Shown: positions 1 to 38,532 of the stretch, piece by piece
Position numbering within the stretch: position 1 is the stretch's first letter
Layout of the letters: every line of letters begins with the position of its first letter
IMG/VR virus record: IMGVR_UViG_3300046311_000246
Location: 1-39,315 of that record
Length of the DNA: 39,315 nucleotides
Strand: one strand, 5' to 3'
Source of the DNA: a virus
Position numbers and translations under genes: made by a program
The notes under the pieces: model-generated
Told to the model about the DNA's origin: nothing
The model's database searches: none
Seen by the model: only the letters and a program-made list of their open reading frames with translations

Positions 1-1093
1 CTTTTTCTATGAGGGTTAAATTATCTCTTAAATATGGTTTGATTGATATGTATGTTTTACCATATTCAGGTGTGGGTAAATTCTCCCCACCATATACAGT
101 AATTGTTTCAATGTCATCGAATTGGTTGGATATAATTGCAAGATAATCTGTTTCAGTAACACATCTATCTTGAGCAGTAAATAATCTTTTACTATTAAAG
201 CGGATTGTTTCAATATCTTCTCTATCTAAACCACTTGCGGATATTGCCACCACAGATAGGGTAATGTCATTATTACCCCCAATCGCATCAGATATGGAGA
301 ATGTCTTTGCACCATTCACTTCCAATCCCTTAGTTGAAATATATTGTGCATGAATGACGTTATTATTTTCTAATTTCTTTCCCATAACATCATCACCAAA
401 TGATATTTGGAATAGTCCGTCATAATTTTCATCAATAAAATAAATTTGCGAATCAATATTAATTTCCCGTAAACTTGTGTATCTTGTATAAACAACTGAA
501 TTTAACGCTGAATCATGCTCCTTTACTGTTATCAATAATGTGTTGGTGTCTATATTATAATCAGGAATAACAAATACAGGATAAGTATCTCTATCATCAT
601 ATACAAAATATGTATCCTTTAAAACGCCCTGTACAATTTCAATATTAGTAAAGCGGAATTTTCCGTCCAATGATTTACTTGATGAATAACTTTGATTTGT
701 TACAAATGGATATTCCGTATTGTTTATTGTTGTTGTAAAGCGTGTACCTTTTGGTAGAATTAATGTATTTGAAACGCCTATTGGATTATTAACGGTTATA
801 TTTACTACAGCTTTTGACGCTATTTTTGAACGAGGTTTATACCCTAGAGCAGATGCACGAGTAACAACATTCCCCCTAAGTTGTGCTGATTCTATATTTG
901 TTTCGTTAAAGTTAATATAAGCATTAAGAGCCATAATATGTGTGGAATAACTAAGCGTATCAAGTAAAATGTTGAGGTTTGACCCTTCAAAATTAAAATC
1001 TTGATAAGTGCTTTTACTGGAGAGATATTGTTTGAAAGATTCCTTTATCTCAGAAAAGTCAAGTTTTTTAGGGTCAATTCTTGTTTTAGCCAT
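1..1093 (-). CDS. 6: Baseplate wedge subunit, T4 gp6-like (partial, C-terminus outside window)
   Basis: The reading frame starts at ATG 1093 and stays open to the window edge, giving 364 N-terminal residues. The N-terminus (LDFSEIKESFKQYL, then DFNFEGSNLNILLDTL, then a YSTHIMALNAY stretch) matches the opening of gp6 proteins of T4-like phages (DYDEIKGSFKNYL, YNFDGSALSNLLNVLAYNTHI in T4). A later VYGGENLPTPEYGKTYISIKP stretch is also typical of gp6. In T4, gp6 forms the ring joining neighbouring wedges in the baseplate, so this is a late virion gene. A CTAATTA motif ends 18 nt before the start codon, and no strong ribosome binding site is seen. The gene diverges from the NAD operon. Family assignment rests on remembered T4 and cyanophage sequences. 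Confidence 0.88.
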   Translation of the reverse strand, partial: MAKTRIDPKKLDFSEIKESFKQYLSSKSTYQDFNFEGSNLNILLDTLSYSTHIMALNAYINFNETNIESAQLRGNVVTRASALGYKPRSKIASKAVVNITVNNPIGVSNTLILPKGTRFTTTINNTEYPFVTNQSYSSSKSLDGKFRFTNIEIVQGVLKDTYFVYDDRDTYPVFVIPDYNIDTNTLLITVKEHDSALNSVVYTRYTSLREINIDSQIYFIDENYDGLFQISFGDDVMGKKLENNNVIHAQYISTKGLEVNGAKTFSISDAIGGNNDITLSVVAISASGLDREDIETIRFNSKRLFTAQDRCVTETDYLAIISNQFDDIETITVYGGENLPTPEYGKTYISIKPYLRDNLTLIEK

Positions 1094-1104
1094 ATATTAT
1101 AATC

Positions 1105-1118
1105 TTTATGATAATTAG
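1105..1118 (-). promoter_or_regulatory. Putative phage late promoter of gp6 (CTAATTA motif)
   Basis: On the minus strand the site reads CTAATTATCATAAA, with CTAATTA at 1118-1112 and 18 nt to the gp6 start codon. It matches the CTAATTA-N3-TAAA pattern found before the other virion genes in this window. Confidence 0.6.
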
Positions 1119-1132
1119 CAATTATTTTTACC

Positions 1133-1161
1133 TTTACAAACATTAGTTTTTATGTTATTTT
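1133..1161 (+). promoter_or_regulatory. Sigma70-type promoter for the NAD salvage operon
   Basis: A TTTACA box at 1133-1138 is followed after 17 nt by TATTTT at 1156-1161, about 30 nt before the start of the nadM-like gene. The -10 is weak; an overlapping A/T-rich alternative lies a few bases downstream. Confidence 0.45.
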
Positions 1162-1192
1162 ATAAAAAATTAAACAATTATAGGAACATATT

Positions 1193-2179
1193 ATGAAAAA
1201 CGGTATTTTTATTGGTCGGTTCTCCCCCCTCCACGAAGGTCATTATAGTTTGATAACAAGGGCTATTGAAAAATACAGTATTGATAAACTATATATTGGT
1301 ATTGGTAGTGCAAACATTTCTGGAACTATTAAGAATCCCATGACTGTTTTTGAAAGAGAAAGCTATATTAAACAATTTTTTATTCATAAGGGGGATATTT
1401 TTAACCTAGAAAAATTGTCATTTGAGTATATAGATGATTCTTATAATGAAGAACGTTGGCTATATTACATTGATAAAAAAATAAAAGATTATAAAATTGA
1501 TTATTTATTTTATCATGCAAAAAAAGATGGCTCAAGTTCATGGGTGGAAAATGTTTATTGTAAAAATGTTATTGATATTGAACCAATTACAGATATATCA
1601 GCAACACAAATTAGACAATCTATCATTGACAATCCTCTCGTGGAAAACTATTTTTACGACTTCAATCCATATAGGGAGTATGTAAAATTTATAAATGATT
1701 ATAATTCTAAATTTACCCATCCATACTGCAACAAAACAACTCATGTAACTGTTGATTTACTAATAAGAACAATAGATAATAACCATAATAATGCTATTGT
1801 ATTAATTAAACGAAATAAAGGCTTGGGTAGCGGTAAATATGCTTTAATTGGGGGGTTTGTTGAACCACATGAAACTTGTCTTGATGCAGTGATTAGAGAG
1901 TGTTACGAGGAAACAGGAATTATTATCCCTAAACAATTAATAGATGATGAATCAAAAGTATTTGATGCTCCAAATAGAAGTGATAGAGGACGTATCATCA
2001 CCCATGTTTATCAATGTTATTTGGAGTATTATAAATTGTTGGACATTATAAATAATTTTAAACCTAACGATGAAGTATCTGAAATAAAAATTGTATCTGA
2101 AGGAGAATTTAATTCAAATATTAAATATAACTCGTTTGAAGACCATTCTCTATTAGTCGATTATTGTATGAATTGGTAA
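1193..2179 (+). CDS. nadM: Bifunctional nicotinamide-nucleotide adenylyltransferase / Nudix hydrolase
   Basis: The 328-aa protein has two enzyme domains. Residues 1-150 form a nucleotidyltransferase with the GRFSPLHEGH motif (HxGH at 14-17) and the ISATQIR motif (135-141), the signature of NMN adenylyltransferases that make NAD from NMN and ATP. Residues 185-328 form a Nudix domain with a complete Nudix box at 221-243 (G221, E227, R235-E236, E239-E240, G242). In this fusion family the Nudix part usually acts on ADP-ribose; vibriophage KVP40 encodes such a protein (NatV). It is the first gene of an operon with the 166-aa unknown and NAMPT, a layout that fits nicotinamide-to-NAD salvage. Both active sites look intact although the NAMPT partner is broken. 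Start ATG is the only one near the sigma70-type promoter. Confidence 0.92.
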   Translation: MKNGIFIGRFSPLHEGHYSLITRAIEKYSIDKLYIGIGSANISGTIKNPMTVFERESYIKQFFIHKGDIFNLEKLSFEYIDDSYNEERWLYYIDKKIKDYKIDYLFYHAKKDGSSSWVENVYCKNVIDIEPITDISATQIRQSIIDNPLVENYFYDFNPYREYVKFINDYNSKFTHPYCNKTTHVTVDLLIRTIDNNHNNAIVLIKRNKGLGSGKYALIGGFVEPHETCLDAVIRECYEETGIIIPKQLIDDESKVFDAPNRSDRGRIITHVYQCYLEYYKLLDIINNFKPNDEVSEIKIVSEGEFNSNIKYNSFEDHSLLVDYCMNW

Positions 2180-2183
2180 AATT

Positions 2184-2684
2184 ATGAGTTATTGGTCTCA
2201 AATATCAGGATTAATTGTCGTCAGTGGATTTTTTGACATCAAAATCATTAATAAAAACTCTCCTTTTGGTAGCGAGGGTGGGTTGGATTTTACTATAAAC
2301 AGCTCCATAACAAACGATTATGGCACAAGTTATAGCAATAAACACCCTCAAGGAAAATCATATTTAAAATCAGAAATGTTCACCAATATATCATTTTCTG
2401 GAAATTTGAGAGATTTTGAATCTGATAAAATCGTAAGAGTTGAAAAATGGTTAAATGGAATAGCACAATATTTTACTAAATTAAGTGATACTAATAAATA
2501 TAAATATTTTAATGATGGTAAGGATTATCATCCTGAAAAACTAATGCCAATATTGTGTGATGTGAATATAAGAGTTTATAATCGAGATTTATTAGTACAT
2601 TTCTATCTTGATGAATCCTTTAAAGACAACACCACCATATACGAAATCTATAAAAGAGAAATCATAGAAAAGGAAATTATATGA
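2184..2684 (+). CDS. Conserved phage protein of unknown function in the NAD operon
   Basis: A 166-aa protein lying 4 nt after nadM and overlapping the NAMPT start by 4 nt (ATGA), so it is translated within the NAD operon. It has an N-terminal MSYWSQISGLIVVSG strand-like segment, a PFGSEGGLDF motif, and a later FSGNLRDFESD motif. I recall a loose family of small phage proteins with a GSEGxL...GDLRDY pattern and no known function; the match is from memory only. No signal peptide, membrane segment or catalytic motif is visible. Its place between two NAD enzymes could mean a linked role, or it could be a passenger. Confidence 0.6.
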   Translation: MSYWSQISGLIVVSGFFDIKIINKNSPFGSEGGLDFTINSSITNDYGTSYSNKHPQGKSYLKSEMFTNISFSGNLRDFESDKIVRVEKWLNGIAQYFTKLSDTNKYKYFNDGKDYHPEKLMPILCDVNIRVYNRDLLVHFYLDESFKDNTTIYEIYKREIIEKEII

Positions 2685-2911
2685 AACACAACCTATTATT
2701 AAACAGTGATGCTTACAAACATTCGCACAAAGATATGCTAGATAATGACATAGCATATATGAATAGTTATCTTGAATCTAGGGGAGGAACATTTAATAAA
2801 GTTTATTTCTTTGGGTTACAATATATCTTAAAAGAATATTTAACTACACCAATAACCCAAGCAGACCTTGATTATGCTTTTCCTATCCTCGATACAATAG
2901 GAACTGGATAG
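2681..2911 (+). pseudogene. Nicotinamide phosphoribosyltransferase, 5' fragment (interrupted)
   Basis: These 76 codons carry the N-terminus of NAMPT: LLLNSDAYKHSHKDML matches the conserved LLxTDSYKxxHxxxYP start, and VYFFGLQYILKEYL matches the FYGLQYILxKYL segment. The frame ends in TAG right after IGTG, where NAMPT proteins continue toward a GWxYI segment. The downstream remainder of the gene lies beyond the IS607-family element. Full-length NAMPT is about 460-490 residues, so this fragment cannot fold as an enzyme by itself. NAMPT joins nicotinamide to PRPP to give NMN, the substrate of the upstream adenylyltransferase. Confidence 0.88.
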
Positions 2912-2990
2912 TTACAAATTTCTATGAAAAATCAAGAAACTTGTTTTAGATGTAAACATCTTGGGTGAACTACAACACCCTCTATTTCAT
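2870..2990 (-). ncRNA. Predicted TnpB guide RNA (omega/reRNA) region, approximate limits
   Basis: Inferred only from position. In TnpB elements the guide RNA comes from the 3' end of tnpB through the transposon end, and its guide is the adjoining flank. Here tnpB stops at 2932, about 20 nt from the element end, so the RNA would overlap the tnpB 3' end and the guide would be the minus strand of roughly 2890-2910, that is NAMPT coding sequence. A short ATAG/CTAT inverted repeat (2908-2911 and 2922-2925) sits at the junction. No structure could be computed. Confidence 0.3.
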
Positions 2991-4158
2991 TCTTATTTTG
3001 GAATAATCCTGAAATTGCCTTTCTCATAATATTAAACGCACCGTTTAAATCAGAGTTTATTAATCTTCCATCCGAAGCACGAAACATTCCACGTTTAATT
3101 CTTTTACCTTTATATGTTTCATGTTTCTTGACATCTTCTAAGTCAAGAAAACTACACTTACTTGTATAAGATTCTTCGTGCTTGTTTACTACTATCCCAA
3201 CTAATTCACATTTATAAGTTATCATTTTAACAAATGTATCATGGGGTATGTTTACAAAATTTTGATTATTCTTACTACCAATATTGATTTCTTGTTTTTG
3301 GTTAATGTTTTTCCCAATAATTAAATTAGTAACATCATTGGAAACTAAATGATTAACCAATAATCGACTTGCTTTATGCAAATAATCGTTTATTTTATTG
3401 TTACGCTTAAATGTAAGCTTTTCTATGGATAATGAACTTTTCTTCCCTCCCTTTAATTTAATTTGAAGTTTTGCTTTCTTTTTATTATAGAACTGGTTCA
3501 TTGATTTTAATGGATTGCCGTTAATAATAAATGGATTTTTCAAATCTGAGAAAGCAACAGTTGCTAAGTTTTTTAAACCTAAGTCAATAGAAGCTATATT
3601 TCCAACATCCTCTTTAAATGGGGTAATTTCTTTATTATACACAACCTCCACAACATAATGTGATTTCCTAGGTACTACCCTGACTTGAGCTATATCGTTA
3701 AAATTTTCTATTTTACTTTTAATTCTAACATCACATCCTGAGAGTTTAATATATCCTTTTTTAAACTCTGTTTTTGAAATCGCTTGATTAGTAAATATTG
3801 TTACAAATCTTCCATCTGTTTTATCTAGGTAGCCAGGTATTTTCGGTTTACCTAAATATTTCTTTGGATTTTTCTTATAATCATTATTTGCTTTAAAAAA
3901 ACTTACAAAATTTTTATCAAGAACTTTTAATGTTTGTTGTACAACTTTAGCAGGTAATAATGAATAGCATTCCTTATATTTAGTTTTTAATTTCTTTTCA
4001 ACTGAATAATAATTTAAATATTTTTCATTTTTTATAAATTCCTGTCTTATTAAGAAAAGTCCCATATTATAAATATTCTTAGATTGAAAACATAATTCAT
4101 CTAAAGACTTAAATGTCTTATTTGATTTCTTTATAATATGTTTCTCTACTAATTGCAT
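2932..4158 (-). CDS. tnpB: TnpB, RNA-guided RuvC-like nuclease of an IS607-family element
   Basis: A full-length 408-aa TnpB. RuvC-I is IASIDLGLKNLA with D192, and RuvC-III is INSDLNGAFNI with D370. At the usual RuvC-II position the segment reads NLIIGKNINQKQ, with Gly282 where many TnpBs have the catalytic Glu. This belongs to the subgroup with IGKN...NNQNFVNIP...EESYTSK, where a nearby Glu (328 or 329) may serve instead. The CxxC zinc finger of typical TnpB is not seen: CSFLD replaces CSxCG. TnpB is an RNA-guided DNA nuclease that cuts at the donor or at unoccupied targets and so helps element retention; here the guide would point at NAMPT. Its start overlaps the tnpA stop, which suggests coupled translation. 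Confidence 0.9.
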   Translation of the reverse strand: MQLVEKHIIKKSNKTFKSLDELCFQSKNIYNMGLFLIRQEFIKNEKYLNYYSVEKKLKTKYKECYSLLPAKVVQQTLKVLDKNFVSFFKANNDYKKNPKKYLGKPKIPGYLDKTDGRFVTIFTNQAISKTEFKKGYIKLSGCDVRIKSKIENFNDIAQVRVVPRKSHYVVEVVYNKEITPFKEDVGNIASIDLGLKNLATVAFSDLKNPFIINGNPLKSMNQFYNKKKAKLQIKLKGGKKSSLSIEKLTFKRNNKINDYLHKASRLLVNHLVSNDVTNLIIGKNINQKQEINIGSKNNQNFVNIPHDTFVKMITYKCELVGIVVNKHEESYTSKCSFLDLEDVKKHETYKGKRIKRGMFRASDGRLINSDLNGAFNIMRKAISGLFQNKNEIEGVVVHPRCLHLKQVS

Positions 4159-4727
4159 GATAATTCTTGTATAAGTTTTTCAGTTTTACGTTTGGTTCGT
4201 CTTAGTCCGTATAATCGTGCAGTGAATGAAGTTATGATAGAAACAAAATCTTCCATTAAATCTTCTTTAATATTTTCTGGTGGGTTAATTATCTCAATAC
4301 GCCTATTATCATTTGCCATAAGTTTCTCAATATAATTTAAACCAAATCTACAGAATCTATCTGAATGTTCAACAACTATAACATTTATATTTCTATTAGT
4401 CAATAACTTTTCTAGTTTAGGTCTTTTATCATTTAACCCAGAACCAATTTCACAGACAGCCTGCTCAACAATATATCCTTTAGCACTACAATAATCTAAA
4501 AGTCTATTCTTTTGTTTTTCTAAATTATCTTTGTTTTCAGATGATGACACTCTTGCATATATAGCAACTTTATTTATCGTATCATTATCTTCTTCCACAA
4601 CAAAGTTCAAACCTGTTGTTAATTTTTCAATTTTGATAAGACCTTTATAAAACCAGTTCCAAACAGTCCTCACAGTAACACCATGCTTTTTAGCATAGTC
4701 AGATAACTTTAATATTTTTCTTGACAT
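4149..4727 (-). CDS. tnpA: TnpA, IS607-family serine recombinase
   Basis: The 192-aa protein has an N-terminal MerR-like helix-turn-helix (residues 1-45, KLSDYAKKHGVTVRTVWNW) followed by a small serine recombinase domain. AIYARVSSS carries Arg59 and the nucleophile Ser61, and SDRFCRFG is the second conserved arginine motif. The length and HTH-first domain order are those of IS607 transposases, which move DNA through a covalent 5'-phosphoserine intermediate. An AAGGAAG ribosome binding site precedes the ATG. The CTAATTA motif, the presumed phage late promoter, ends 18 nt before the start, the same spacing as for several virion genes. The gene looks intact. Confidence 0.92.
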   Translation of the reverse strand: MSRKILKLSDYAKKHGVTVRTVWNWFYKGLIKIEKLTTGLNFVVEEDNDTINKVAIYARVSSSENKDNLEKQKNRLLDYCSAKGYIVEQAVCEIGSGLNDKRPKLEKLLTNRNINVIVVEHSDRFCRFGLNYIEKLMANDNRRIEIINPPENIKEDLMEDFVSIITSFTARLYGLRRTKRKTEKLIQELSCN

Positions 4728-4738
4728 TTACTTCCTTT

Positions 4739-4752
4739 CTTTATATAATTAG
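4739..4752 (-). promoter_or_regulatory. CTAATTA late-promoter-like site upstream of tnpA
   Basis: The minus strand reads CTAATTATATAAAG, with CTAATTA at 4752-4746 and 18 nt to the tnpA ATG. It matches the phage motif in both sequence and spacing, although it lies inside the inserted element. Confidence 0.5.
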
Positions 4753-4821
4753 CTAATGTTGTTTTATGAAAAATTACATTATTTTTTCATAATATTTCAT
4801 AAGAAAATAAGAAGTTATTTA

Positions 4822-5580
4822 ATACCTGCCCTACAATTATTGATTGATTATTATAATTACCTACCCACTAATCCTATTAGCGTAAGAGCGTCTGAGCATA
4901 GCATCATGTGTCAACGAGGACGTTTAGGTGAACATGATATTGCTAGAAATATTGTATTATCACACCCCGATAAAATCACATCTATTGTAATTGATGCGTA
5001 CAACGATGAAAAATTCTTGGATTTTATTGGCACTGAATTAAAAGAAGATATTAAGAAAAGAACAGCACCCCTGATTATAAGACCTGATAGTAAGACACCG
5101 ATCGAAGCAATTATGATGTGCTTTAATAAATTGGAATATTATTTTGGTTCAACATTTAACTCTAAAGGGTATAAAGTTCTACCACCATATATCCGTATTA
5201 TTCAAGGAGATGGTATCAATATTGATTCTATTGATGAAATATTAATACAGTTAGTCGATAATAAAATATCCATTGATAATGTTATTTTCGGTATGGGAGG
5301 TGCGTTGTTGCAAAAAATTGATAGAGATACCCAAAAATTTGCAATCAAATGTAGTCAAGTAACATTAAAAGATGGTACTACAAGAAATGTTTTCAAAGAC
5401 CCTATTGGTGATAAGGGTAAGAAGTCTAAATCAGGTAAACTGGCATTAATTTATGATGATGGTTATCACACAATGAGAATACAAGAAATTCGAGGAAAAG
5501 AAAATTTATTGAAATTAGTTTATAAAAACGGTAAACTAATGAACGAACAATCATTTCCATTCAAGGTAACGTCAAACTAA
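4822..5580 (+). pseudogene. Nicotinamide phosphoribosyltransferase, 3' fragment
   Basis: About 250 codons of NAMPT C-terminal sequence. ISVRASEHSIM holds the catalytic-histidine motif (AAEHS in human NAMPT). Further matches are APLIIRPDSKTP (PLIIRPDSGNP in human), KVLPPYIRIIQGDGINID (KLLPPYLRVIQGDGVDIN), NVIFGMGGALLQKI, NVFKDPIGDKGKKSKSGKL and VYKNGKL. The first 20 or so codons of the open frame beginning at 4756 are element sequence. Compared with human NAMPT, about residues 90-230 are absent, including the HDFGYRG region that binds substrate, so excision of the element would not restore the enzyme. The fragment has no visible ribosome binding site. Confidence 0.88.
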
Positions 5581-5586
5581 AAAAAC

Positions 5587-5615
5587 TTGACAAACGTCAT
5601 ATTATATATTATAAT
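5587..5615 (+). promoter_or_regulatory. Consensus sigma70-type promoter
   Basis: TTGACA at 5587-5592, a 17-nt spacer and TATAAT at 5610-5615 form a perfect consensus 47 nt before the 84-aa gene. It probably drives the three small genes 5662-6444. Confidence 0.85.
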
Positions 5616-5661
5616 AAATCTGTAGAAGCTAAAATTTCTACATTTTTATGAAGATTATTTT

Positions 5662-5916
5662 ATGCCATATATAAAACCAACAGACCGACCAAACCTTGAC
5701 GATATTATATCTACTTTAGATATATTTGAACTTGATGTGGGGGATATTAATTATCTGGTAACAAAGTTACTGAAGGAATATATAAGTATTCATGGGGAAA
5801 ATTATGAAAATTATAATTCTCTTGTGGGTGTACTTGAATGTATTAAGCAGGAGTTTTATCGGAGGCAGATCGCACCGTATGAAGATATAAAAATTCGGCA
5901 GAACGGTGATGTCTGA
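5662..5916 (+). CDS. Small conserved protein of unknown function (DUF6899-like)
   Basis: An 84-aa soluble protein, first gene after a consensus promoter. Its pattern (MPYI start, a DINYLVTKLLKEYI helix, a LVGVLECIKQEFYRR helix, and the ending APYEDIKIRQNGDV) matches a small family I recall from phages and bacteria with a GDLNYVITKLL ... VGVLECxKLELYRR ... APYEDxKIxENGDV signature. The function is unknown. The next frame overlaps its end, so the three small genes probably form one operon. Confidence 0.7.
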   Translation: MPYIKPTDRPNLDDIISTLDIFELDVGDINYLVTKLLKEYISIHGENYENYNSLVGVLECIKQEFYRRQIAPYEDIKIRQNGDV

Positions 5917-6250
5917 AAATTTAAAATGGTATCGTTATGATATGGATAACTATCAGAACTTCTTCCGAACGAATCTTCCAATAAAAGATAAACCTTTAAC
6001 TATTTACCACATAGAGAAACATGATAAATTTACTTACCTTGACAACATATATTCTTTTGTATTATGTTTGGATGACACCGATAATTTCTTTAAAGAAAAT
6101 TCAGATTACCATTTAAGAAATCCCAAATACCCATCAAGAACAGTAGATTTTCTTGGTAATGACGGATTGGTGGAATCTTATTTTTTAAGAGATGATAAAA
6201 TAGATTGTTTAATATGCGAAATTGTTAAAAATAGAAAGGAAAGAGTTTAA
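5909..6250 (+). CDS. Hypothetical protein
   Basis: A 113-aa protein rich in Asp, Asn and aromatic residues, with no membrane segment or recognised motif. An in-frame GTG lies one codon upstream at 5906; ATG 5909 is chosen because it is an ATG. It overlaps the preceding gene by 8 nt and the following one by 1 nt (TAATG), so translation is likely coupled. I do not recognise the family. Confidence 0.6.
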   Translation: MSENLKWYRYDMDNYQNFFRTNLPIKDKPLTIYHIEKHDKFTYLDNIYSFVLCLDDTDNFFKENSDYHLRNPKYPSRTVDFLGNDGLVESYFLRDDKIDCLICEIVKNRKERV

Positions 6251-6444
6251 TGGAAGAAAAATTTGTCATAACAAAAGAACAACTTTTGGACTTTATTGAG
6301 GCTTCAATTAAAGTGAGAGCTTACGAGAGAATGCCAAGCTATAATAGGGTTTTACTTGATTATCTTCTCGATGAATGGATAAATAGTTTTAGAGATGAAG
6401 CGTTAAATCGACTTGGAAATTACGAACAATTACCACAAAGTTAA
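6250..6444 (+). CDS. Small hypothetical protein
   Basis: A 64-aa, mostly helical, acidic protein, last of the three-gene operon started by the 5587 promoter. An AAGGAAAG ribosome binding site precedes the ATG. It is convergent with the gp54-like gene, with only 5 nt between stop codons and no obvious terminator hairpin. Not recognised. Confidence 0.55.
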   Translation: MEEKFVITKEQLLDFIEASIKVRAYERMPSYNRVLLDYLLDEWINSFRDEALNRLGNYEQLPQS

Positions 6445-6449
6445 AATAA

Positions 6450-7331
6450 TTAAATTGATGGTAACGGTTTACTTATGATCGTACCGCTTGGATTACCCTG
6501 TGCTTTAAAAAAATCAGGTAGGGGGGTTGAAGTTATATTATCGGATACGTTAAGATTTTCTAAAAAACCCCCAACACTTTTTAATGTACTAGAAACAGCG
6601 TCAGTTAAGTCCCCAAACATTTCACTGATACTATATTCCTCAAAATCATCATAAGCAAAAGTAACGTTATATGTTACATAAGCGTTCATTTCACTTTCAT
6701 TAAATACCATTTCAGATTGTGTTATGGGAAAAGCCCCTTTTATTTTTACGACATAATTGGGAATATTATTATCATCACAACATACGATAAAAGCATCTCT
6801 TGCATATTGGTTTTTGTATTTCACCCTATTTGTTTTACGATCAACGATAGATTTTTCCCACGTCTTAAACATTCTTGGAATAAAATAATCATTCGTAACG
6901 ATAAAACTTATACTAAATTCCGTATTATTAAAACCATTTACCATAGTTTGATTATGTTTTTCAAGAGAATAATTAAACGTGTTTAAATTGCTTGATGGTA
7001 TTGATACGGATTCACAAAAAATACCAATATCCCTTGGATCATCTAAAAAACTTTGAACATACCCATTACTTAAACCGTATGCAATAGACATAGCATTTTG
7101 ATTAAATAAATTATAATCGGGGGTTTTCATTATAACAGAAAATCTATTAGTACGAGCAATAGATCCGTGACGATTAATACCTGCTTTTAAATCTTCAGCA
7201 GTGTTTCCAAGGATTGTTGCTGTAACTTTTCCCGCAGCTTTTGTTAGATTCCTTAATCCTGAATCTGTAAAATCAGTCAGTCTGTTAAGCCCAACGGAAT
7301 TTGCTAGACCTCCAAGGCGGGGGATACTCAT
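6450..7331 (-). CDS. 54: Tail-tube-fold baseplate protein, T4 gp54-like
   Basis: The 293-aa protein has a core (about residues 60-240) with the order seen in T4 gp54. FCESVSIPSS corresponds to IYSVKMPENRL, FSISFIVTNDY to VISFRMDSEAC, a MFKTWEKSIVD helix to MQDWVNSVQDP, VKIKGAFPITQSEMVF to MFTGCIPISVSAPELS, and YVTYNVTFAYDDFE to TTFDVTFAYRVMQ. This is the tail-tube fold shared by gp19, gp48 and gp54. In T4, gp54 starts tail tube assembly on the baseplate. gp48 or another tube-fold protein is a possible alternative. A CTAATTA late motif ends 19 nt before the start codon. It is the second of two adjacent minus-strand tail genes. Confidence 0.6.
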   Translation of the reverse strand: MSIPRLGGLANSVGLNRLTDFTDSGLRNLTKAAGKVTATILGNTAEDLKAGINRHGSIARTNRFSVIMKTPDYNLFNQNAMSIAYGLSNGYVQSFLDDPRDIGIFCESVSIPSSNLNTFNYSLEKHNQTMVNGFNNTEFSISFIVTNDYFIPRMFKTWEKSIVDRKTNRVKYKNQYARDAFIVCCDDNNIPNYVVKIKGAFPITQSEMVFNESEMNAYVTYNVTFAYDDFEEYSISEMFGDLTDAVSSTLKSVGGFLENLNVSDNITSTPLPDFFKAQGNPSGTIISKPLPSI

Positions 7332-7343
7332 AATTTGTTATCT

Positions 7344-7357
7344 TTTATGATAATTAG
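7344..7357 (-). promoter_or_regulatory. Putative phage late promoter of the gp54-like gene
   Basis: The minus strand reads CTAATTATCATAAA, identical over 14 nt to the gp6 site, with CTAATTA at 7357-7351 and 19 nt to the start codon. It overlaps the stop end of the upstream 211-aa gene. Confidence 0.6.
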
Positions 7358-7989
7358 GTTAATGATTTTCTAATATAATCATTCCACACAGAACTATCAC
7401 TAGCACCTTTTTGCCATTGTGCGGTTGGCGTTGTTAATGCTATATCCATATATTTTAAAGGGATACAATAAAAATTGGTCTGCACCTGCGATAAAAGATA
7501 TTTTTTGTAGGAAAAACCAAATCCATTATTTTCAAGCAATCCTTTCAAAGCGTAATAATCACCAACCCCAGTAAATTTATTAACATTATTATCCATATTC
7601 CAATAATTGTATTTTTCTATTAATTTTTGCATTATACGAAATCTAACAGTTAAAGGTAGATAATGGAAATTTATTCCATCCATGTAGATTCGACCATTTT
7701 CCGTCCATTTGTTTATAATTAATGTCATAGGATAAGCATCAAAATATTTTAAACTCTCCGTTATTGCTTCATATTGAAAATAAACTAACATACCACTTTG
7801 AACTTGAGAAATATCTAATAATTCACTATCCTTAGCGAAACCTGGTGATTTTCTCAGACTAGACCGTAAAAGCTTTATTCTCTTAATAAAAAAATTGAAA
7901 CTATCAATGGTTCTAGGGCGTAGCCCTGCATTTGATGCTTGTTGACGGAGCTTGTATAAAATCGAGGTCTTTTCACTTATATCTACCAT
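7354..7989 (-). CDS. Probable virion/baseplate-associated protein of unknown role
   Basis: A 211-aa soluble protein directly upstream of the gp54-like gene and on the same strand. The central section (GMLVYFQYEAI, YFDAYPMTLIINKW, then INFHYLPLTVRFRIMQKL) resembles a family found in tail regions of T4-like marine phages, with an FxYxP...YYDxFPLxL...GxNLHYLP pattern. I recall it only as a structural protein and cannot give it a T4 number. HEG1 ends 7 nt before its start codon, so HEG1 appears inserted just upstream, between this gene and the CTAATTA promoter at 8735. Confidence 0.6.
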   Translation of the reverse strand: MVDISEKTSILYKLRQQASNAGLRPRTIDSFNFFIKRIKLLRSSLRKSPGFAKDSELLDISQVQSGMLVYFQYEAITESLKYFDAYPMTLIINKWTENGRIYMDGINFHYLPLTVRFRIMQKLIEKYNYWNMDNNVNKFTGVGDYYALKGLLENNGFGFSYKKYLLSQVQTNFYCIPLKYMDIALTTPTAQWQKGASDSSVWNDYIRKSLT

Positions 7990-7996
7990 ACCTTAA

Positions 7997-8674
7997 TTAG
8001 AGTATAAATGTCCACTGATACCCTTTATGTGATTTACTTTTACCGATACAACATTTTGAAACAGTGCTAAAATCGAACCCGTCTAATTTTGTTGCATTAA
8101 CTGATGGGTATTCCTTTATAAGGACATCATCTTTATATTGACCAACTCTTTTCTTTGGTTTTGCATCACTCATTTTCTTTCTTGTTTCATCTGTATGTTT
8201 ATATCCTAAACTATTTGTATTACCTTTATATGCGTCACTTATTTTCTTTCTTGTTTCATCCGTCCTTTTTTTACCCCTATTACCATCACTCATTTTCTTT
8301 CTTGCTTCTTCAGTATGTTTATAACCAACAGAACCCTCTCCTCCTGCTGTCATATTCACTAAAGTACCAGTTCCTAAATCTCTTCTCCCATAAAGTAGAA
8401 TAAACTCAACTTCTTTTCTATTTGCTTCCTCTTCTGATAAGCCCTCTATCATTATTTCTATTCTATATTCAGTTTTATTAATCACATTATGCCAATGTGG
8501 ATTACTACGGTGTGTATTTTTACTTCTTTCATATTTTCCATCAATATTAGTTCCTTTACCTATATAAAATACTTCATTTTTATCTAAACGAATATGTCTG
8601 TATATGTAACAGAGTTTTTGTTCTTGATTATTTTTATTATTTATGGTACTATGACCATGTGGATTATTATCCAT
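7997..8674 (-). CDS. GIY-YIG homing endonuclease with NUMOD3 and NUMOD1-like motifs (HEG1)
   Basis: The 225-aa protein has three parts. The N-terminal GIY-YIG nuclease domain has YIYRHIRLDKNEVFYIGKG followed by YGRRDLGTGTLVN and an RKEVEF segment with the likely catalytic Glu. Next come three NUMOD3-type units (KHTEEARKKMSD, KRTDETRKKISD, KHTDETRKKMSD). The C-terminal NUMOD1/IENR1-like segment is VGQYKDDVLIKEYPSVNATK to KSHKGYQW. An in-frame GTG lies at 8704, but ATG 8674 is preferred because a GAGAGG ribosome binding site stands 8 nt before it and it aligns with the starts of HEG2 and HEG3. Such free-standing endonucleases cut phage genomes lacking the gene and spread by repair. Confidence 0.85.
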   Translation of the reverse strand: MDNNPHGHSTINNKNNQEQKLCYIYRHIRLDKNEVFYIGKGTNIDGKYERSKNTHRSNPHWHNVINKTEYRIEIMIEGLSEEEANRKEVEFILLYGRRDLGTGTLVNMTAGGEGSVGYKHTEEARKKMSDGNRGKKRTDETRKKISDAYKGNTNSLGYKHTDETRKKMSDAKPKKRVGQYKDDVLIKEYPSVNATKLDGFDFSTVSKCCIGKSKSHKGYQWTFIL

Positions 8675-8734
8675 GCTGATGTCCTCTCTGACGTTAGAAC
8701 CCACAGATGTTTCAGCATCGTGGTGGGTATAATT
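8675..8734 (-). promoter_or_regulatory. Structured 5' leader of HEG1 (two hairpins)
   Basis: Hairpin 1 (8699-8728) pairs ACCCAC with GTGGGT and GATG with CATC. Hairpin 2 (8681-8692) pairs GTC with GAC and holds the AGAGAG ribosome binding region in its loop. Both hairpins recur before HEG2 and HEG3 with compensatory base changes. Confidence 0.55.
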
Positions 8735-8741
8735 TAATTAG
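8728..8741 (-). promoter_or_regulatory. Putative phage late promoter of HEG1
   Basis: The minus strand reads CTAATTAAATTATA, with CTAATTA at 8741-8735, directly before the structured leader. It may originally have served the 211-aa virion gene downstream. Confidence 0.5.
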
Positions 8742-8746
8742 CCTTT

Positions 8747-8776
8747 ATTATAACATTATAGGTTTTACAATGTCAA
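8747..8776 (-). promoter_or_regulatory. Sigma70-type promoter of HEG1, tandem with the late motif
   Basis: On the minus strand TTGACA (8776-8771), an 18-nt spacer and TATAAT (8752-8747) form a consensus promoter just upstream of the late motif, so HEG1 could be transcribed both early and late. Confidence 0.65.
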
Positions 8777-8837
8777 ATTTATTTACCACTTACAAAGCAA
8801 TGACTTACATAATAATTATCTAAAATAAATTGTTTCC

Positions 8838-8851
8838 CTAATTACTTTAAA
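8838..8851 (+). promoter_or_regulatory. Putative phage late promoter of the gp8-like gene
   Basis: Reads CTAATTACTTTAAA, with 24 nt from the end of CTAATTA to the start codon; an AAGGAAT ribosome binding site lies between. Confidence 0.6.
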
Positions 8852-8868
8852 ATATTAAGGAATACAAT

Positions 8869-10233
8869 ATGCCAGCTAAAGCAATGCACTCGAGCAGGAT
8901 TAACAATGCACAAAACTTCATTGATGATGTTGCTGAAAGTGGTAACTCATTTTTTGTGGGAATCGGAAAATCCGACAGTTGGTCTGACACATTTGATGAT
9001 TTTACGGATGATAATCTTTACCCCGAATTAGTTAATGGTGCAACCCGTACATTGACATACGAAGCACAAGTAAGACAAAATATACTAGCAATGAAAAAAC
9101 TATCTGTGCCATTTGTATCACATGGGATAAGAAGATATAATTGGATAAGTGGACAGACTTATGTTGCATGGGATTCGACTGATCCAGATATATTTACGAA
9201 AAGATTTTATGTAGTTACGGATGATTTAAATGTTTATAAATGTATTCGGAGAGGAGCTGGTGCATCATCTGTTCGTCCATCCCACACAAATGCAACACCA
9301 ACGACTGAGGCTGATGGGTATATGTGGCGTTTTATGTATTACCTTTCTGCTGTTAATACGCAAAGATTTTTAACGGATGTATATATACCTGTTAAGACTG
9401 TTTTGGGTGTTGGTGCTATTGACGCTGATAATGACCAATATGCAAATCAATTAGAATCCTTAAATATCAAAGGGGACATTTACACCATTAAAGTTGTTAA
9501 TGGGGGCAGTGGCTATACATCTGCAACTGTTGTTATTGATGGGAATGGTACTGGTGCTACTGCAACAGCTACTTTATCGGGGGGTGTTGTTACAGGAATT
9601 ACAGTAACGAATGTTGGAAGTAACTATAACGTAGCCAAAGTAACAATTACAGGTAATGGTACGGGTGCTACTGCTGTTGCTGTTTTATCACCACCAAACG
9701 GACATGGCTATGATCCTGTGGCTGAACTTGGGGGAGAATTTGTACTTGTTAGCTTTACATTGGTTGGGGATGAAGAAAATACATTTATTGTGGATGATGA
9801 TTTCCGTCAAATTTCCCTTATTAAAAATCCTTTAAATTTTGGTACGTCTGTTATAGCAACTGCTGATAGGTTAGAAGCTGTTAAAACTATGCGATTAAGT
9901 TCAGTAACAAATGGTACATCTTTTACACAAAGTAACGTGGGTTCTGTTATAAGAAGTCAATCGGACGAATCGATCAAGGCTTTTGTTGTTAGTTATGATA
10001 CAGCTTCTGGTGATTTAAAATATACACAAAATGATAAGACTGGATATAAGCCTTTTGTGCAAGGCAGTACGATTTTATCGAATACCGGTGCGACAGGAAC
10101 AATATCAGTTTTAGCACAAGCAACGCCTGATGTAAATATTCATAGCGGACAATTACTTATTGTGGATAATATCCAAGCTGTGAATAGAACTATTACTGGA
10201 CAAGAATCTTTAACATTTATTATTCAACATTAA
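8869..10233 (+). CDS. 8: Baseplate wedge protein, T4 gp8-like, with an inserted glycine-rich repeat domain
   Basis: The 454-aa protein begins with an INNAQNFID segment, then [13 protein letters not shown], which matches FITFGRSEPWSS of T4 gp8. Next come VYKCIRRG (LVYRCLD in T4), the [13 protein letters not shown] motif (GDGYVWEYLFEIP), YIPVKTV, and [16 protein letters not shown] (GFRQISIITNPLEA). gp8 is a dimeric wedge protein of the contractile-tail baseplate. Unlike T4 gp8 (334 aa), residues about 210-275 hold two copies of a beta-type repeat ([12 protein letters not shown] then [23 protein letters not shown] then [12 protein letters not shown]), a unit common in phage fibre proteins. A late promoter motif precedes it. 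Confidence 0.8.
9496..9695 (+). repeat. Two-copy glycine-rich coding repeat within gp8
   Basis: Two tandem units encode GYTxA-like strands followed by GNGTGATA; the DNA segment GGTAC-GGTGCTACTGC recurs with a single changed base. The unit resembles repeat modules of tail-fibre and surface proteins and is absent from T4 gp8. Confidence 0.6.
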
Positions 10234-10241
10234 AATATGGA

Positions 10242-10270
10242 TTGACATAATTTATTTCTCGTGTTATTAT
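10242..10270 (+). promoter_or_regulatory. Sigma70-type promoter
   Basis: TTGACA (10242-10247), a 17-nt spacer and TATTAT (10265-10270), 28 nt before the 181-aa gene. It probably drives the three non-virion genes up to 11368. Confidence 0.75.
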
Positions 10271-10298
10271 TATTTTAAAATTAACATGGAGAATTTAA

Positions 10299-10844
10299 AT
10301 GTCTGAAAAAAATTACACATTACTAACTTGGGCTTACAATGATAGTGGTGTTTGTATTGGCGATGTAGAACTTGCCAAAGAATTATTCCAATTAGGGATT
10401 GATCCACAACCAGCAAAACCTAGAAATCAAGTATGTAGTATTGGTTGGTGTGAACATGAACAAAAATGGTACGGTTGGTCACATCGTGCGAGATGGGGCT
10501 TTGGTATTGGTTCTGGGGTTAAAAAAGGCGACATAGCATATAATCCTGCTAACCTAGATGATTGGATAGAGAATAAAGTAGCGTTTGAGGTTGATGAGTA
10601 TCAAACACTTATAAGAACTGAAATAAAACCCAATCAAAAAGTCGATCTTGATGATAGTGGGGATAGAACGGTTCTTACTATTACTACACGTTACAATAAT
10701 GAAGTACCGATCGAAAGTCGCAGAAATACTATTAATCATGATCATTTTGTAGTTCCTGAAACATTTGGACGTGGGGAGTGGACAGCACAAACTCTTGAAG
10801 ATGCAAAACAGATGGCTATAGACTTCGCAGATAACACAGGATAA
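10299..10844 (+). CDS. Conserved phage protein of unknown function
   Basis: A 181-aa soluble protein preceded by ATGGAGAA (ribosome binding site) and a sigma70-type promoter. It contains a conserved-looking VCSIGWCEHEQKWYGWSHRA segment followed by FGIGSGVKKGD. I recall this segment from several large phages, without a function. An acidic middle and the C-terminal TLEDAKQMAIDFAD helix follow. It sits with two small genes between virion genes, which suggests an early accessory cluster. Confidence 0.6.
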   Translation: MSEKNYTLLTWAYNDSGVCIGDVELAKELFQLGIDPQPAKPRNQVCSIGWCEHEQKWYGWSHRARWGFGIGSGVKKGDIAYNPANLDDWIENKVAFEVDEYQTLIRTEIKPNQKVDLDDSGDRTVLTITTRYNNEVPIESRRNTINHDHFVVPETFGRGEWTAQTLEDAKQMAIDFADNTG

Positions 10845-10847
10845 ATA

Positions 10848-11048
10848 ATGGACAAAGACAAACTTTTAGAACAAATATTAAAAGCTAAAGATACTATTAC
10901 AATGTTTAATATTGAAGAACTTGTTGAGGAATGTGATTTTTTTATGCCTGAAAAAGTTAAGAATAGGGTACAAGATGCTATAAAATTCCATGACGCTCTT
11001 TTCATCGGGAGAATAAATAGGCTATTAAGAAAAGATGATTTAAAATGA
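10848..11048 (+). CDS. Small hypothetical protein
   Basis: A 66-aa, predicted helical, charged protein 3 nt after the preceding gene and overlapping the next start by 4 nt (ATGA). No recognised domain. Confidence 0.5.
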   Translation: MDKDKLLEQILKAKDTITMFNIEELVEECDFFMPEKVKNRVQDAIKFHDALFIGRINRLLRKDDLK

Positions 11049-11368
11049 TAATGCCTGATAAAATGATTACAGCATCTCAATCATTATTTTACAAATCTTT
11101 ACTAATCCTAAAGGAATTAAATAAAACCAAAGAACCTGTGAAAATATTTTTAGCATTACAAAATTCTATGAGTGCTAAGGATTTTATTTTATGTTTAAAC
11201 TATCTATTTATTATAGGGGAGATCACTATGGAAAAAGAGCCGTCCAATCATTTAGAAAGCTATGAAAAACCAAATGACGAAACCATTGAAGCTATGGAAG
11301 ATGCGATAAATGGTAACGTCATTCATTATAATTCTGTTGATGAATTATTTGATGATTGGGAACAATAA
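11045..11368 (+). CDS. Small protein with an antitoxin-like C-terminus
   Basis: The full frame encodes 107 aa. Its last 35 residues (KPNDETIEAMEDAINGN, then NSVDELFDDWEQ) resemble the C-terminal tail of RelB/DinJ-type antitoxins, which often read PNxETxxAMxEAxxG ... SxDELFxDL. An internal in-frame ATG at 11228 has a strong AGGGGAG ribosome binding site (11215-11221), so a 46-aa protein holding just this tail may be the main or an extra product. No toxin gene is adjacent on either strand. The N-terminal 60 residues are helical and unrecognised. Confidence 0.55.
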   Translation: MIMPDKMITASQSLFYKSLLILKELNKTKEPVKIFLALQNSMSAKDFILCLNYLFIIGEITMEKEPSNHLESYEKPNDETIEAMEDAINGNVIHYNSVDELFDDWEQ

Positions 11369-11396
11369 TAAAAAAATAATTATCTATTCCCCTTTG

Positions 11397-11410
11397 CTAA
11401 TTAAGTAAAA
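11397..11410 (+). promoter_or_regulatory. Putative phage late promoter of the giant baseplate gene
   Basis: Reads CTAATTAAGTAAAA, with 23 nt from the end of CTAATTA to the start codon. Confidence 0.55.
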
Positions 11411-11426
11411 CATAGTGGAATAGATA

Positions 11427-14400
11427 ATGCCAATTACCCCTTACGAATCGTCCCCATACCATGACGATTTTGACCAAGCAAAAAACTTTTATAGAATATT
11501 ATTCTCGGGGGGTAGACCAGTCCAACCAAGAGAATTAAATCAATTACAAACAATTATAAATAATCAATTTGATCAATTAACAAGTCATTTTTTCAAAGAT
11601 GGCTCTCCTGTTGTTGGTGGTAATGTTGTTTTTAATAATGAATATTCCTTTGTTAAATTAGAATCAACATTTACACATTCCGCTACAAGTTATACTGCTA
11701 CGAATTATGCAAACGAATATGTGGGTACGATATTAACTGGATTGACATCAGGCGTTAAAGCACGAGTATTACAAGTTGTACAGCCTGTTGGTTCTGATCC
11801 GCTAACAATATATGTTCGATATGAAGGTTCAGGTACAGACAATGAAACAAAGACGTTCTCACCATCGGAAGTATTATCATCGAATGGTTCGCCAGTAAGA
11901 TATGCCAAAGTAAAAAACTTAGCATCTGTTCCAACTGGGTATGGGGCTAGTTTTTCTGTCGATGAGGGTTATTGGTATGTTAATGGTGCTTTGGTGTATG
12001 CACCGTTTCAATCTATTATTTTAGGTAAATATTCCCCCGATAATATTAATACGAGATTATCTTATAAAATATCCGAACAGACAGTAACATCTGCTACAGA
12101 CAGTTCATTGTTTGATAATACTTTGGGTGCTACTACACTTGGGGGTACAGGTGCAGATAGACAAAAAATAAGTCTTGCATTAATACGAGAAGATTTAGAT
12201 TATGATAATAGAGATCCGTTAAACAATAAACTTATACAATTAATAGTTATTGAAAATTCAAGAGTAAAGAAAAGTGCAAAGACTGAATATTCCGATTTGG
12301 GAGATACTTTAGCCCAAAGAACTTATGATGAATCGGGTAATTACACCGTTAATAACTTTGGTATTAACATTAAAGAACATTTAAATGATGGTAGTAATTT
12401 AGGACAATATACTGCTGAGGGAGGTGGCACTGCTACTAAACTTGCTGTTGGTATTGAAAAGGGGAAAGCTTATGTATATGGTTATCCCATTGAAATAGAA
12501 GATACCATTTATTTAGATGTTGATAAATCAAGAGATGTTGAATATAAAAATAATGCGTCCCTAACAGTAAAATATGGTAATTATATTGAAATTAATACTG
12601 TTGTATCAATACCTGATATACAAAATTTTACAACAGCGAATTTAAGAAATTCAGGGAATACGACTATAGGAACAGCAAGAATTAGACACATTCAATATGT
12701 TTCTGGAAGTGGTAGCAGTGCTAAATATAGGTTATATATTTTTGATGTTATAATGAATAGCGGACAGTCCTTTTCTAATGTGGATAACATTCAACAAACT
12801 GTACCTTATGGAGGATCTGCTTTTACTGCTGATGTCATATCTGCATCTTCCTTATTTGATACTGACACAAATAAAATGTTATTTGATTTACCGTTCGCTA
12901 CAACTAAAACATTAAGAGATACATTAGGGAATATAGAATCTATTTACGATGCTAAAGTATTATTAAGTGGAACTGTTACAACAGGTTCTGTTACTATCAA
13001 TACTGGCAATGCTAATATTACGTTCAATTCGTCATCTACATCTGAGTATATTATAACACGAGATGATAATGGTACGATTATATCACCAACATCCATTACT
13101 ATAAATTCTCCTGCCAATACTGCAACACTAACATTTACAGGACAAGATGGTAATCTTATTTATGTATATGCCCCCGTTACAAAAGTTAATACAAGTGCAA
13201 GAGAAAAAACTAAAACTCTCACCACTGGTGCAACAGTCAATCTTAGTTCGCCCGATGTAACATCCAGTGGTGTTTTCTATTCTCTTGGTAAGTGTGATGT
13301 ATTACGCATTAATTCCATTACTAATGGTGGTGTTAATATAACAAATAGATTTACCCTAGATAACGGACAAAGAGATAATTTTTACACAGTATCAAGGGTT
13401 CAACTAAAATCAGGGTTTAGTCAACCAAGTGGAACAACCACAGTAAATTTTGATTATTTCACTCATGGTGCGGGGGATTATTTTTCAGTGGATTCGTATG
13501 CCAATATTGATTATGAGGATATACCATCTTACAAGGGGAAATCCTTACGAGATTTATTGGACTTTAGACCTGTTAAAGATTATGCAGGGGTTAATTTTAC
13601 ATCTACAGGAGCTTCTAAGGGGGATGTTATTGAACCTAATAGTGTATTTCGTTCTGATATGCAATTTTACTTACCACGCATTGATAAAATATTCATTAAT
13701 AAAAGTGGTAAATTTGGCATTGTAAAGGGTATATCTTCTGTACCTCCCCAAGTACCAAATAACCCAAAAGACAGCATGGTAATATATACCTTAACGATTA
13801 ACCCCTTTACCTTTGGTGCGTATGATGTCATTCCTAACCTGGTTGATAATTCTCGCTCCACTATGGAAGATATTAGAAGATTGAAGAAGCGTGTTGATAA
13901 ATTAGAATATTACGTTGCATTATCATTACTTGAAAAAGAGACTTCAAATTTACAAATATTTGACGATTCAGGATTAGAAAAGTATAAAAACGGATTTATT
14001 GCAAATTCTTTTTATGGACATAATTTATCATACACAACACATCCCGACTATTCTTGTTCGATTGATAAGATTAAAGGACATTTAAGACCACAGTTTTATC
14101 AAGACAACGTAAAGATGTATTATAATTCAGGAGCGTCAACTAATGTGCAAAAAACAGGGGCGTTATTAACATTACCATATAGCAAAGTGGTGGAGGAAAG
14201 ACAACCATTTGCCACTGAAGCTATCAATGTAAACCCATACAATGTGTTTTTGTGGTCTGGTACAATGACTTTATCCCCCAGTTCTGATGAATGGAAAGAA
14301 ACCAAAAGAAGACCTGACGTTATTTTTAACAACGAGGGTATATATGATTCTCTTGTAAATATTATTGATGAAACAAATGCTAATGGTACACTATGGAATG

Positions 14401-16721: not shown

Positions 16722-16731
16722 TTATTTTAGA
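16718..16731 (+). promoter_or_regulatory. Putative phage late promoter
   Basis: Reads CTAATTATTTTAGA, overlapping the stop codon of the giant gene; 18 nt from the end of CTAATTA to the 73-aa gene start. Confidence 0.5.
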
Positions 16732-16742
16732 AAGATTTAATT

Positions 16743-16964
16743 ATGGCAAGAAAAAAAGCGAAAGTATTAGATAACCCCGATTTAGAAAAAGATTTAGAAA
16801 CTGGGGTTATCATTAACAACAATAAGAGTAATTTAATTAACCGCAAGATGGTTAAAAGGAATATCTTACAAAAGGAAAATGATTTACAAAAATATAAAGA
16901 TTTATGTGAAACTCTAATTCAACGCCTTGAAATCATTGAAGACAAAATTCAACAATCTAATTAA
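16743..16964 (+). CDS. Small lysine-rich coiled-coil protein between virion genes
   Basis: A 73-aa basic protein. The N-terminal half is Lys/Asn-rich (ARKKAKVLDNPDLEKDLE) and the C-terminal half is a continuous coiled coil (about residues 40-72). Its position between the giant baseplate gene and the tail fibre, with its own late motif, suggests a virion or assembly role such as a fibre connector or chaperone. This is inference; no family is recognised. Confidence 0.6.
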   Translation: MARKKAKVLDNPDLEKDLETGVIINNNKSNLINRKMVKRNILQKENDLQKYKDLCETLIQRLEIIEDKIQQSN

Positions 16965-16970
16965 GTTAAA
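16957..16970 (+). promoter_or_regulatory. Putative phage late promoter of the tail fibre
   Basis: Reads CTAATTAAGTTAAA, starting just before the stop codon of the 73-aa gene; 18 nt from the end of CTAATTA to the fibre start. Confidence 0.55.
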
Positions 16971-16981
16971 GTGGAAAAATA

Positions 16982-34045: not shown

Positions 34046-35005
34046 CTATAAATATTTCCAATAATAACTTTTGTGTGATTTACGTTTACCTAAACAACAA
34101 GCACTGACATTACTGGGGATATAACCATCAGCTCTGGTAGCTTCAATGGAATGATATACTTTTATAAGAATACCGTCCTTATATTGTCCTACTGGTTTAC
34201 AGTATGACGCATGACGCAGATTTTCTTTAGCCTCCTCAGACATTTTCTTACTTTTATGTTTATCGCTAATTTTCTTTCTAACCTGTTCCGATTGACAGGC
34301 ATTCTCAAATCCATATTTTTCCAAATTAGTCTTTTTTACCTTATTACGAACCTCCTCTAAAAGAAATACGTTTTCTACCCCATATTTTTCTAAAAAACTA
34401 TTTTTTCTTTTTTTATTTATAAGATCATACCCTACAGAACTTTCTGTGCCATACCTTATTACATTAGTTTTATTCCTTTTTTCTTTAACGTACTCGCTAC
34501 TTCTAGCATCCTCAACACCATACTTTTTTAAATTAGTTTCCCTAGTTTTACTTGCAACAGAATCTGATAATAAAGGACATTCCACCCCATATCTCTCTAC
34601 GTTTGTATTACGTCTTTTCTCCTTAGATTCCTCCGTTGTTAATGCCCCATGACTACCCTGTCCACCGCTTGTTTTATTTACTAAAGTTCCTGTTCCTAAA
34701 TCAACTCTTCCATATAATTTAATAAAATATTTTTCCTTTTTACCTAACATCTTAACAGGAACGTCTTTTAGCAAGATTTCAACTCTATATTCTGTATTAT
34801 CAACTACTTCACTCCATTCGTCACTCCTATCCCTTGAATAAGCACGTTCATATTTTCCGTTATCCGTGGTACTTATACCTATGTAAAACGGCATATTAGT
34901 ATCAAGTCTTATATGACGATAAACATACCCAAATTTAATTTTATCTTGATTTTTTGTTTCTTCTGTGTTATCATTAACACATGAATTAGCGTTGCTAATT
35001 ATCAT
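34046..35005 (-). CDS. GIY-YIG homing endonuclease with five KYGVE repeats and NUMOD1-like end (HEG2)
   Basis: The 319-aa protein has a GIY-YIG domain (FGYVYRHIRLDTNMPFYIGIS, then YGRVDLGTGTLVN) like HEG1 and HEG3. Its middle differs, with five DUF723-like DNA-binding units of the form KTNLxKYGVExxxxSexVxxK, then a KKMSEEAKENLRHA unit. The NUMOD1/IENR1-like end (VGQYKDGILIKVYHSIEATR to KSHKSYYW) is shared with its paralogues. ATG 35005 is preferred over the in-frame ATG 35053 because AAGGAAGG stands before it and it aligns with the HEG3 start. It lies between the DUF4325 gene and uvsX. Confidence 0.85.
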   Translation of the reverse strand: MIISNANSCVNDNTEETKNQDKIKFGYVYRHIRLDTNMPFYIGISTTDNGKYERAYSRDRSDEWSEVVDNTEYRVEILLKDVPVKMLGKKEKYFIKLYGRVDLGTGTLVNKTSGGQGSHGALTTEESKEKRRNTNVERYGVECPLLSDSVASKTRETNLKKYGVEDARSSEYVKEKRNKTNVIRYGTESSVGYDLINKKRKNSFLEKYGVENVFLLEEVRNKVKKTNLEKYGFENACQSEQVRKKISDKHKSKKMSEEAKENLRHASYCKPVGQYKDGILIKVYHSIEATRADGYIPSNVSACCLGKRKSHKSYYWKYL

Positions 35006-38525: not shown

Positions 38526-38532
38526 TAATTAG
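38519..38532 (-). promoter_or_regulatory. Putative phage late promoter of HEG3
   Basis: The minus strand reads CTAATTAAATTATA, identical to the HEG1 site, with CTAATTA at 38532-38526. Confidence 0.5.

Follow-up and report, generated by a model that had tools for sequence, protein, structure and literature searches.

Does a phage NAMPT gene that has taken in a transposon remain a working gene and, if it does not, was it the transposon that destroyed it? The question is raised by the window analysed here, the whole of a linear 39,315-base virus record (IMG/VR record IMGVR_UViG_3300046311_000246; G+C 31%) from an uncultured T4-like phage, in which the NAMPT (NadV) gene of a NARP2-type cluster for the salvage of nicotinamide adenine dinucleotide (NAD) is interrupted by an IS607-family tnpA-tnpB element. 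We conclude that this gene is very probably dead and carries at least two lesions. About 124 codons appear to have been lost from its middle, in frame with the N-terminal part, and the element would sit within the GTD motif, some 12 bp rightward of the deletion junction. The stretch from the surviving GT codons to the C-terminal part would in addition be 4 nt short, and the N- and C-terminal coding pieces are out of frame, such that removing the element would not rejoin them.

Two fragments of NAMPT flank a complete element

The N-terminal fragment lies in an open reading frame (ORF) at 2681-2911 that matches NAMPT_N (PF18127, 2e-14) and positions 13-84 of the 500 positions of phrog_448, and the C-terminal fragment lies in an ORF at 4756-5580 that matches NAPRTase (PF04095, 1.1e-29) and positions 225-486 of the same family (1e-71). 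Codons 1-22 of this second ORF belong to the transposon end and not to NAMPT. From the family matches and the alignment to relatives, the surviving gene consists of an N-terminal part of 72 codons (2681-2896) and a C-terminal part of 252 codons (4822-5580), both on the forward strand and in different frames once the flanks are joined. Sister contig aside (see below), the closest relatives share 50-52% identity with the N fragment and 46% with the C fragment. The earlier note on this DNA had proposed that a tnpA-tnpB element split and inactivated NAMPT, and the family matches on both pieces, with a complete element between them, bear this out; of the 76 N-terminal codons that it counted, 72 stand, and the last four (2897-2908) fit the xGTD motif of the C side instead.

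A second NAMPT was not found in the window, where PF04095 matches the C piece alone, nor did tblastn with 19 internal segments from relatives locate the missing segment elsewhere in the window (the only other matches were two, at E 0.33 and 0.61; the segment from locus L003, whose query extends into the N-terminal part, matched the N fragment itself). A working copy of that segment, which would have told against the earlier note, was thus not found in the window. As its sequence reads, this NAMPT gene is unable to specify a complete enzyme.

The same structure is present in a second IMG/VR contig, 3300046315_000147 (the sister contig), which aligns to window positions 1-8951 without a mismatch; its two gaps (20 bases at 105-124 and 6 bases at 4383-4388) lie away from the junctions. 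The two junctions between NAMPT and the element are identical, so the structure cannot be put down to a single chimeric assembly. Over 5540-17203 a third contig, 3300046096_000409, agrees with the window at every base, and it stops short of the junctions. No further contig of this virus was recovered when viral_contigs was scanned with NAMPT, TnpB, NadM and tail tube.

An internal deletion probably distinct from the insertion

The extent of the loss was mapped by aligning 19 of the 28 relatives matched by the N fragment (left out were L005, L007, L009, L011-L013, L020 (untested), L024 (cut) and L008 (interrupted)). Relative to these 19 genes, 119-131 residues are missing from the window gene, the value being 124 for 10 of them, and the gap contains the H[DNA]FGxR motif in all 19, so that this motif is lost. 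We take the motif to contain Phe193 and Arg196, which bind nicotinamide in human NAMPT, and the aspartate of GTD to be Asp219.

On the forward strand, the alignment puts the probable deletion junction at 2896/2897, to within one or two codons. The four codons that follow (2897-2908, forward strand), encoding I-G-T-G, read as a remnant of the xGTD motif that directly precedes the C part in relatives: over the 19 relatives, their mean BLOSUM62 score is 9.7 on the C-side x-G-T-D motif versus -1.4 as a continuation of the N part. Judged by base composition, a GGNACNG match at a given position has a probability of 2.3e-4, which rises to 0.009 when GGN is credited to the N side. The codons adjoining the element thus derive from the C side, which places the deletion junction near 2896/2897, some 12 bp left of the element. 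On this alignment, the deletion and the element insertion are two separate lesions about 12 bp apart.

Between GT and the C part, every one of the 19 relatives has two codons (6 nt), whereas the joined site of the window has only 2 nt, a shortfall of 4 nt, and the flanks once joined read in two different frames. Because the frames differ and the H[DNA]FGxR motif is gone, clean excision of the element could not restore NAMPT.

The alignment to intact NAMPT genes that the earlier note had called for mapped the gap and its junction and qualified several of its claims. A large internal loss stands, although at 119-131 residues and not the roughly 140 codons proposed; excision would indeed leave the gene unrepaired; and the element does split the gene, but the view that it also partly deleted it finds no support, since the residues beside the element belong to the sequence beyond the deletion.

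The element and its ends

Both element genes lie on the reverse strand, antisense to NAMPT. The tnpB gene (2932-4158) encodes 408 residues with matches to the OrfB_IS605 and Cas12f1-like TNB domains (PF01385, 4.6e-21; PF07282, 1.4e-9); the RuvC residues D192, E328, E329 and D370 are present, in columns invariant among 4 sequences. The tnpA gene (4149-4727) encodes an IS607-type serine transposase of 192 residues (PF00239, 3.6e-17; phrog_6620, 3e-52) and is 6 bases shorter, in frame, in the sister contig. The right end of the element (2911-3040, reverse strand) overlaps the 3' end of tnpB and is structured, with a fold z score of -4.21 against -2.73 to 2.05 in eight control stretches inside tnpB; eight related right ends score from -0.64 to -3.18, not all of them distinct from the controls. 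A consensus fold of nine right ends, made without a shuffled control, has 14 pairs, 10 of them with compensatory changes on both sides. Together, fold and consensus yield a structure that fits an omega-RNA scaffold. A lone 50-bp copy of the tnpB end (48/50 matching) occurs in the sister contig at 442-491 of locus L002, directly past the stop of the baseplate gene and with no tnpB ORF adjoining; we considered it as a separate guide RNA and doubt this, the fold being about that of shuffled sequence on both strands (z -0.46 and 0.12).

To place the ends, we used TnpB relatives from 70 loci in genome contigs and 26 loci in viral contigs. Ten relatives with tnpA were compared at both ends, and eight of them were joined with the window, L045 and L054 being omitted as their left ends were unplaceable. 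The ends of these nine elements were set by eye so that the pairs agree, and the matching pairs are therefore partly by construction. The right end before the shared pair reads AAC in 6 of the 9 elements, the remaining 3 having TAC or AAT, and the left end begins with the shared pair about 27 bases ahead of the end of a GAAA-like block. By this comparison the left end of the window element spans 4728-4822 (reverse strand), the putative TA crossover dinucleotides, assigned to neither strand, lie at 2909-2910 (right end, tnpB side) and 4823-4824 (left end, tnpA side), and the element proper (2911-4822) would comprise 1912 bases plus one TA.

The sole independent check of the ends comes from L123, an element in a 324-kb phage contig: once joined, its flanks form a single open frame of 173 codons, the right part of which is a dCMP deaminase (phrog_174, 5.8e-35) and the left flank of which is deaminase-like by eye, indicating that insertion there was clean and without loss. 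An AT crossover pair, with the element at 2910-4821, was tried and replaced by TA; the L123 flanks join in frame with the pair TC. For the remaining elements, the L118 and L095 joins give no spanning frame of 60 codons, the frames at L117, L110, L120 and L127 are mostly on one side, and the L041 contig goes no further than the right end of its element. We also considered whether the L117 element lies beside a deletion in an MmcB-like gene and dropped this, family searches having given no match.

The window element resembles the IS607 family in its serine TnpA, its TnpB with RuvC residues and its structured right end. The TA at both ends with no target duplication would be a further likeness, the matching pair being partly by construction with ends set by eye. 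No pair of alleles with and without the element came to light. IS607 is described, in the portions of the sources consulted, as recombining through a two-base overlap, GG in IS607 itself, without target duplication (PMC6188088, PMC4058570). The window element differs from it in its pair, TA (TN in relatives) versus GG, and in adjoining a 124-codon deletion. It also differs from an IStron, as no group I intron was found at 2400-5700 (Rfam, E up to 5; the sole match was a small RNA below its gathering score). TnpB elements resident in virulent phages are known from the Campylobacter phages CP220 and CPt10, whose elements, unlike that of the window, belong to the IS200/IS605 family, and the consulted portion of that report describes no interruption of NAMPT (PMC2853527). 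In an open-licence PubMed Central literature search we found no TnpB element in a phage NAMPT. Foreign DNA does occur within one other phage NAMPT (L008, 100-2498), which resembles the window in this respect and differs in that no residues are apparently lost and in that the insert holds a 248-residue HNH-like ORF (by eye) instead of tnpA-tnpB; despite the intron-like interruption, no group I intron was matched there by Rfam.

Order of the lesions

How the two lesions arose can be told in several ways. In one, the element landed, at no cost, in a gene that an earlier deletion had already killed. Through the GT codons the deletion preserves the reading frame of the N part and so could have arisen independently, but a landing about 12 bp from an unrelated deletion end would be a coincidence, and one exact gapped pattern for a deleted but element-free allele gave 0 stretches among viral_contigs, a narrow search that may omit records very near the window. 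We regard this order as quite possible, a little short of an even chance. In the converse order the element inserted first and the flank was lost afterwards by ordinary deletion under no selection. Insertion without duplication of host sequence is what is described for IS607, in the part of the source consulted (PMC6188088), and what L123 exemplifies; a clean insertion alone, however, leaves the 4-nt shortfall at the insertion point unexplained, and we hold this order tentatively, as appreciably below an even chance. A third, unlikely course makes TnpB itself the author of the deletion: after excision, a guided cut of the restored site followed by faulty repair from an element-bearing copy would have removed about 370 bp on the guide side. 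The junction does fall on the guide side, at a distance of 14 bases from the first TA base along the element strand (2910 down to 2897), the TnpB of ISDra2 is reported, in the portion of the source consulted, to cut 15-21 bp from its transposon-adjacent motif (TAM) (PMC8612924), and the RuvC residues and the structured right end are both present. Yet this course presumes a fitting TAM and cut distance for the window TnpB, the position of the junction carries a margin of one or two codons, and this is a single case, the related L123 element having no deletion. Were it true, a homing reaction would have turned a reversible insertion into the permanent loss of a counter-defence gene, leaving NadM without NAMPT.

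Two further explanations were weighed. The contig is a metagenome contig, and a chimera of assembly, which the earlier note had named as a way in which its reading could fail, would account for the junctions; we consider this very improbable, because both junctions recur without mismatch in the sister contig and the element ends proposed above coincide with them. That the element is IStron-like or intron-like, with RNA splicing restoring a working gene, has a next to negligible chance. Intron-like interruption of NAMPT does seem to occur, the parts of L008 looking continuous in protein around the HNH ORF, but in the window the missing 124 or so codons already refute a working NAMPT, no group I intron was found at 2400-5700, the flanks are out of frame and tnpA-tnpB runs antisense to NAMPT.

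NadM apparently without a working partner

Upstream of the dead NAMPT gene, at 1193-2179 on the forward strand, lies the gene for a fusion of a NadM-type nicotinamide mononucleotide (NMN) adenylyltransferase and a Nudix domain (328 residues; PF01467, 1.6e-9; PF00293, 2.6e-14) that matches phrog_395 over positions 14-372 of 373 (5.5e-30); the earlier note called this gene intact, and by family match it is complete. The order NadM-Nudix, one small ORF, NAMPT is that of phage DSS3_MAL1 and of the NARP2 type, in which phage Nampt and NadM reconstitute NAD+; the likeness extends to the adenylyltransferase, intact by sequence, and the difference is that the NAMPT is broken and unable to encode the enzyme. 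The small ORF of the window (2184-2684, forward strand, 166 residues) found no family in profile searches and, among loci L003-L032, is present in the sister contig (L016) only.

According to the part consulted of a published survey, every phage with NadM has NadV and the two strictly act together (PMC9503650). In our own sample, 16 of 16 phages with NadM, hand-picked for variety among the 60 listed of 370 records with a NadM match, carry exactly one phrog_448 match, near full length and with no inner stop, and DSS3_MAL1, a 17th record found via NAMPT, also has one. Conversely, a NadM-like ORF is present at 21 of 29 NAMPT loci (L003-L032 minus the sister contig; E up to 1e-3, some matches weak or partial), and a phrog_395 search of 16 NAMPT records gave a match in 15. 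The window contig is thus an apparent exception to the rule that NadM comes with NadV, barring a second NAMPT elsewhere in the genome, beyond these 39 kb.

Several points weigh against the reading proposed here. The window is linear and 39 kb long, and a second NAMPT could sit beyond it. The C piece still reads through 252 codons without a stop and departs from the family at 4 of 34 invariant positions, with no sign of long decay, and the loss may be recent or limited to part of the population. The deletion end may be off by a codon or two given the low identity of the relatives, and the 4-nt shortfall presumes an ancestor with the family spacing. Nor does every NAMPT have a full-length NadM beside it: once the two contigs of the window phage (one with and one without a match) are excluded, near-full-length NadM is found in 10 of 14 NAMPT records and partial matches only in 4. 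As to relaxed selection on the C part, we draw no conclusion, since 4 of 34 violations sit inside the range of intact relatives (0 to 5; L004 5/39, L010 4/38, most relatives 0). The earlier note had further stated that this lineage lost the first step of the route; the broken NAMPT stands, but "lineage" is drawn from two contigs of one virus and a fragment of 39 kb.

If the NAMPT gene is dead, as we conclude, the phage would no longer make NMN from nicotinamide itself, and NadM-Nudix might either use NMN of the host or be a leftover heading for loss; alternatively, the phage may rely on other protection. Loss of NAMPT is in our view a well-supported instance of an ordinary kind of gene loss, though an unusual one, and NadM without NadV adds to its interest: the locus records the loss of a counter-defence pathway, and an intact NadM-Nudix beside a dead NadV would be a natural test of what NadM is used for alone, be it with host NMN or through the Nudix domain. 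Another possible shield against NAD-depleting defence is a 181-residue protein (window 10299-10844) that matches PF25188, Tad6 "Type I Thoeris inhibitor" (5.5e-39), an activity known here by the label alone; among named phages it had one match at E 1e-5, to Phage NCTB (35%). This predicted Thoeris inhibitor may have eased the loss of NAMPT. In the open-licence PubMed Central literature, our search found nothing that joins Tad6 with Thoeris.

Other genes of the contig

The T4-like gene content of the window includes a baseplate wedge protein (phrog_438), a tail tube protein (phrog_45) and a tail sheath stabiliser of the T4 gp15 type, together with a UvsX-like recombinase, a DnaB-like helicase, a DNA end protector and a thymidylate synthase, and the 39-kb window is probably a fragment of a larger genome. 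The helicase is only 25.8% identical to that of the closest named phage (the best among 15 listed of 2123 records), and no close named relative is therefore seen. The 20 bases at 105-124 that the sister contig lacks leave its baseplate gene split across two reading frames.

Four genes of the window are homing-endonuclease-like (7997-8704, 34046-35053, 37186-37779 and 37774-38460), and over 37775-38533 the window shares 73% identity with the 7997-8704 region as it occurs in the sister contig. We rejected 37186-37779 as an NAD gene: it matches phrog_447, labelled "NAD synthetase", but Pfam identifies a SegE GIY-YIG endonuclease, and the label looks wrong. A 107-residue protein at 11045-11368 gave weak matches to the ABC-3C middle components MC7 (1.6e-7) and MC6 (9.5e-7).

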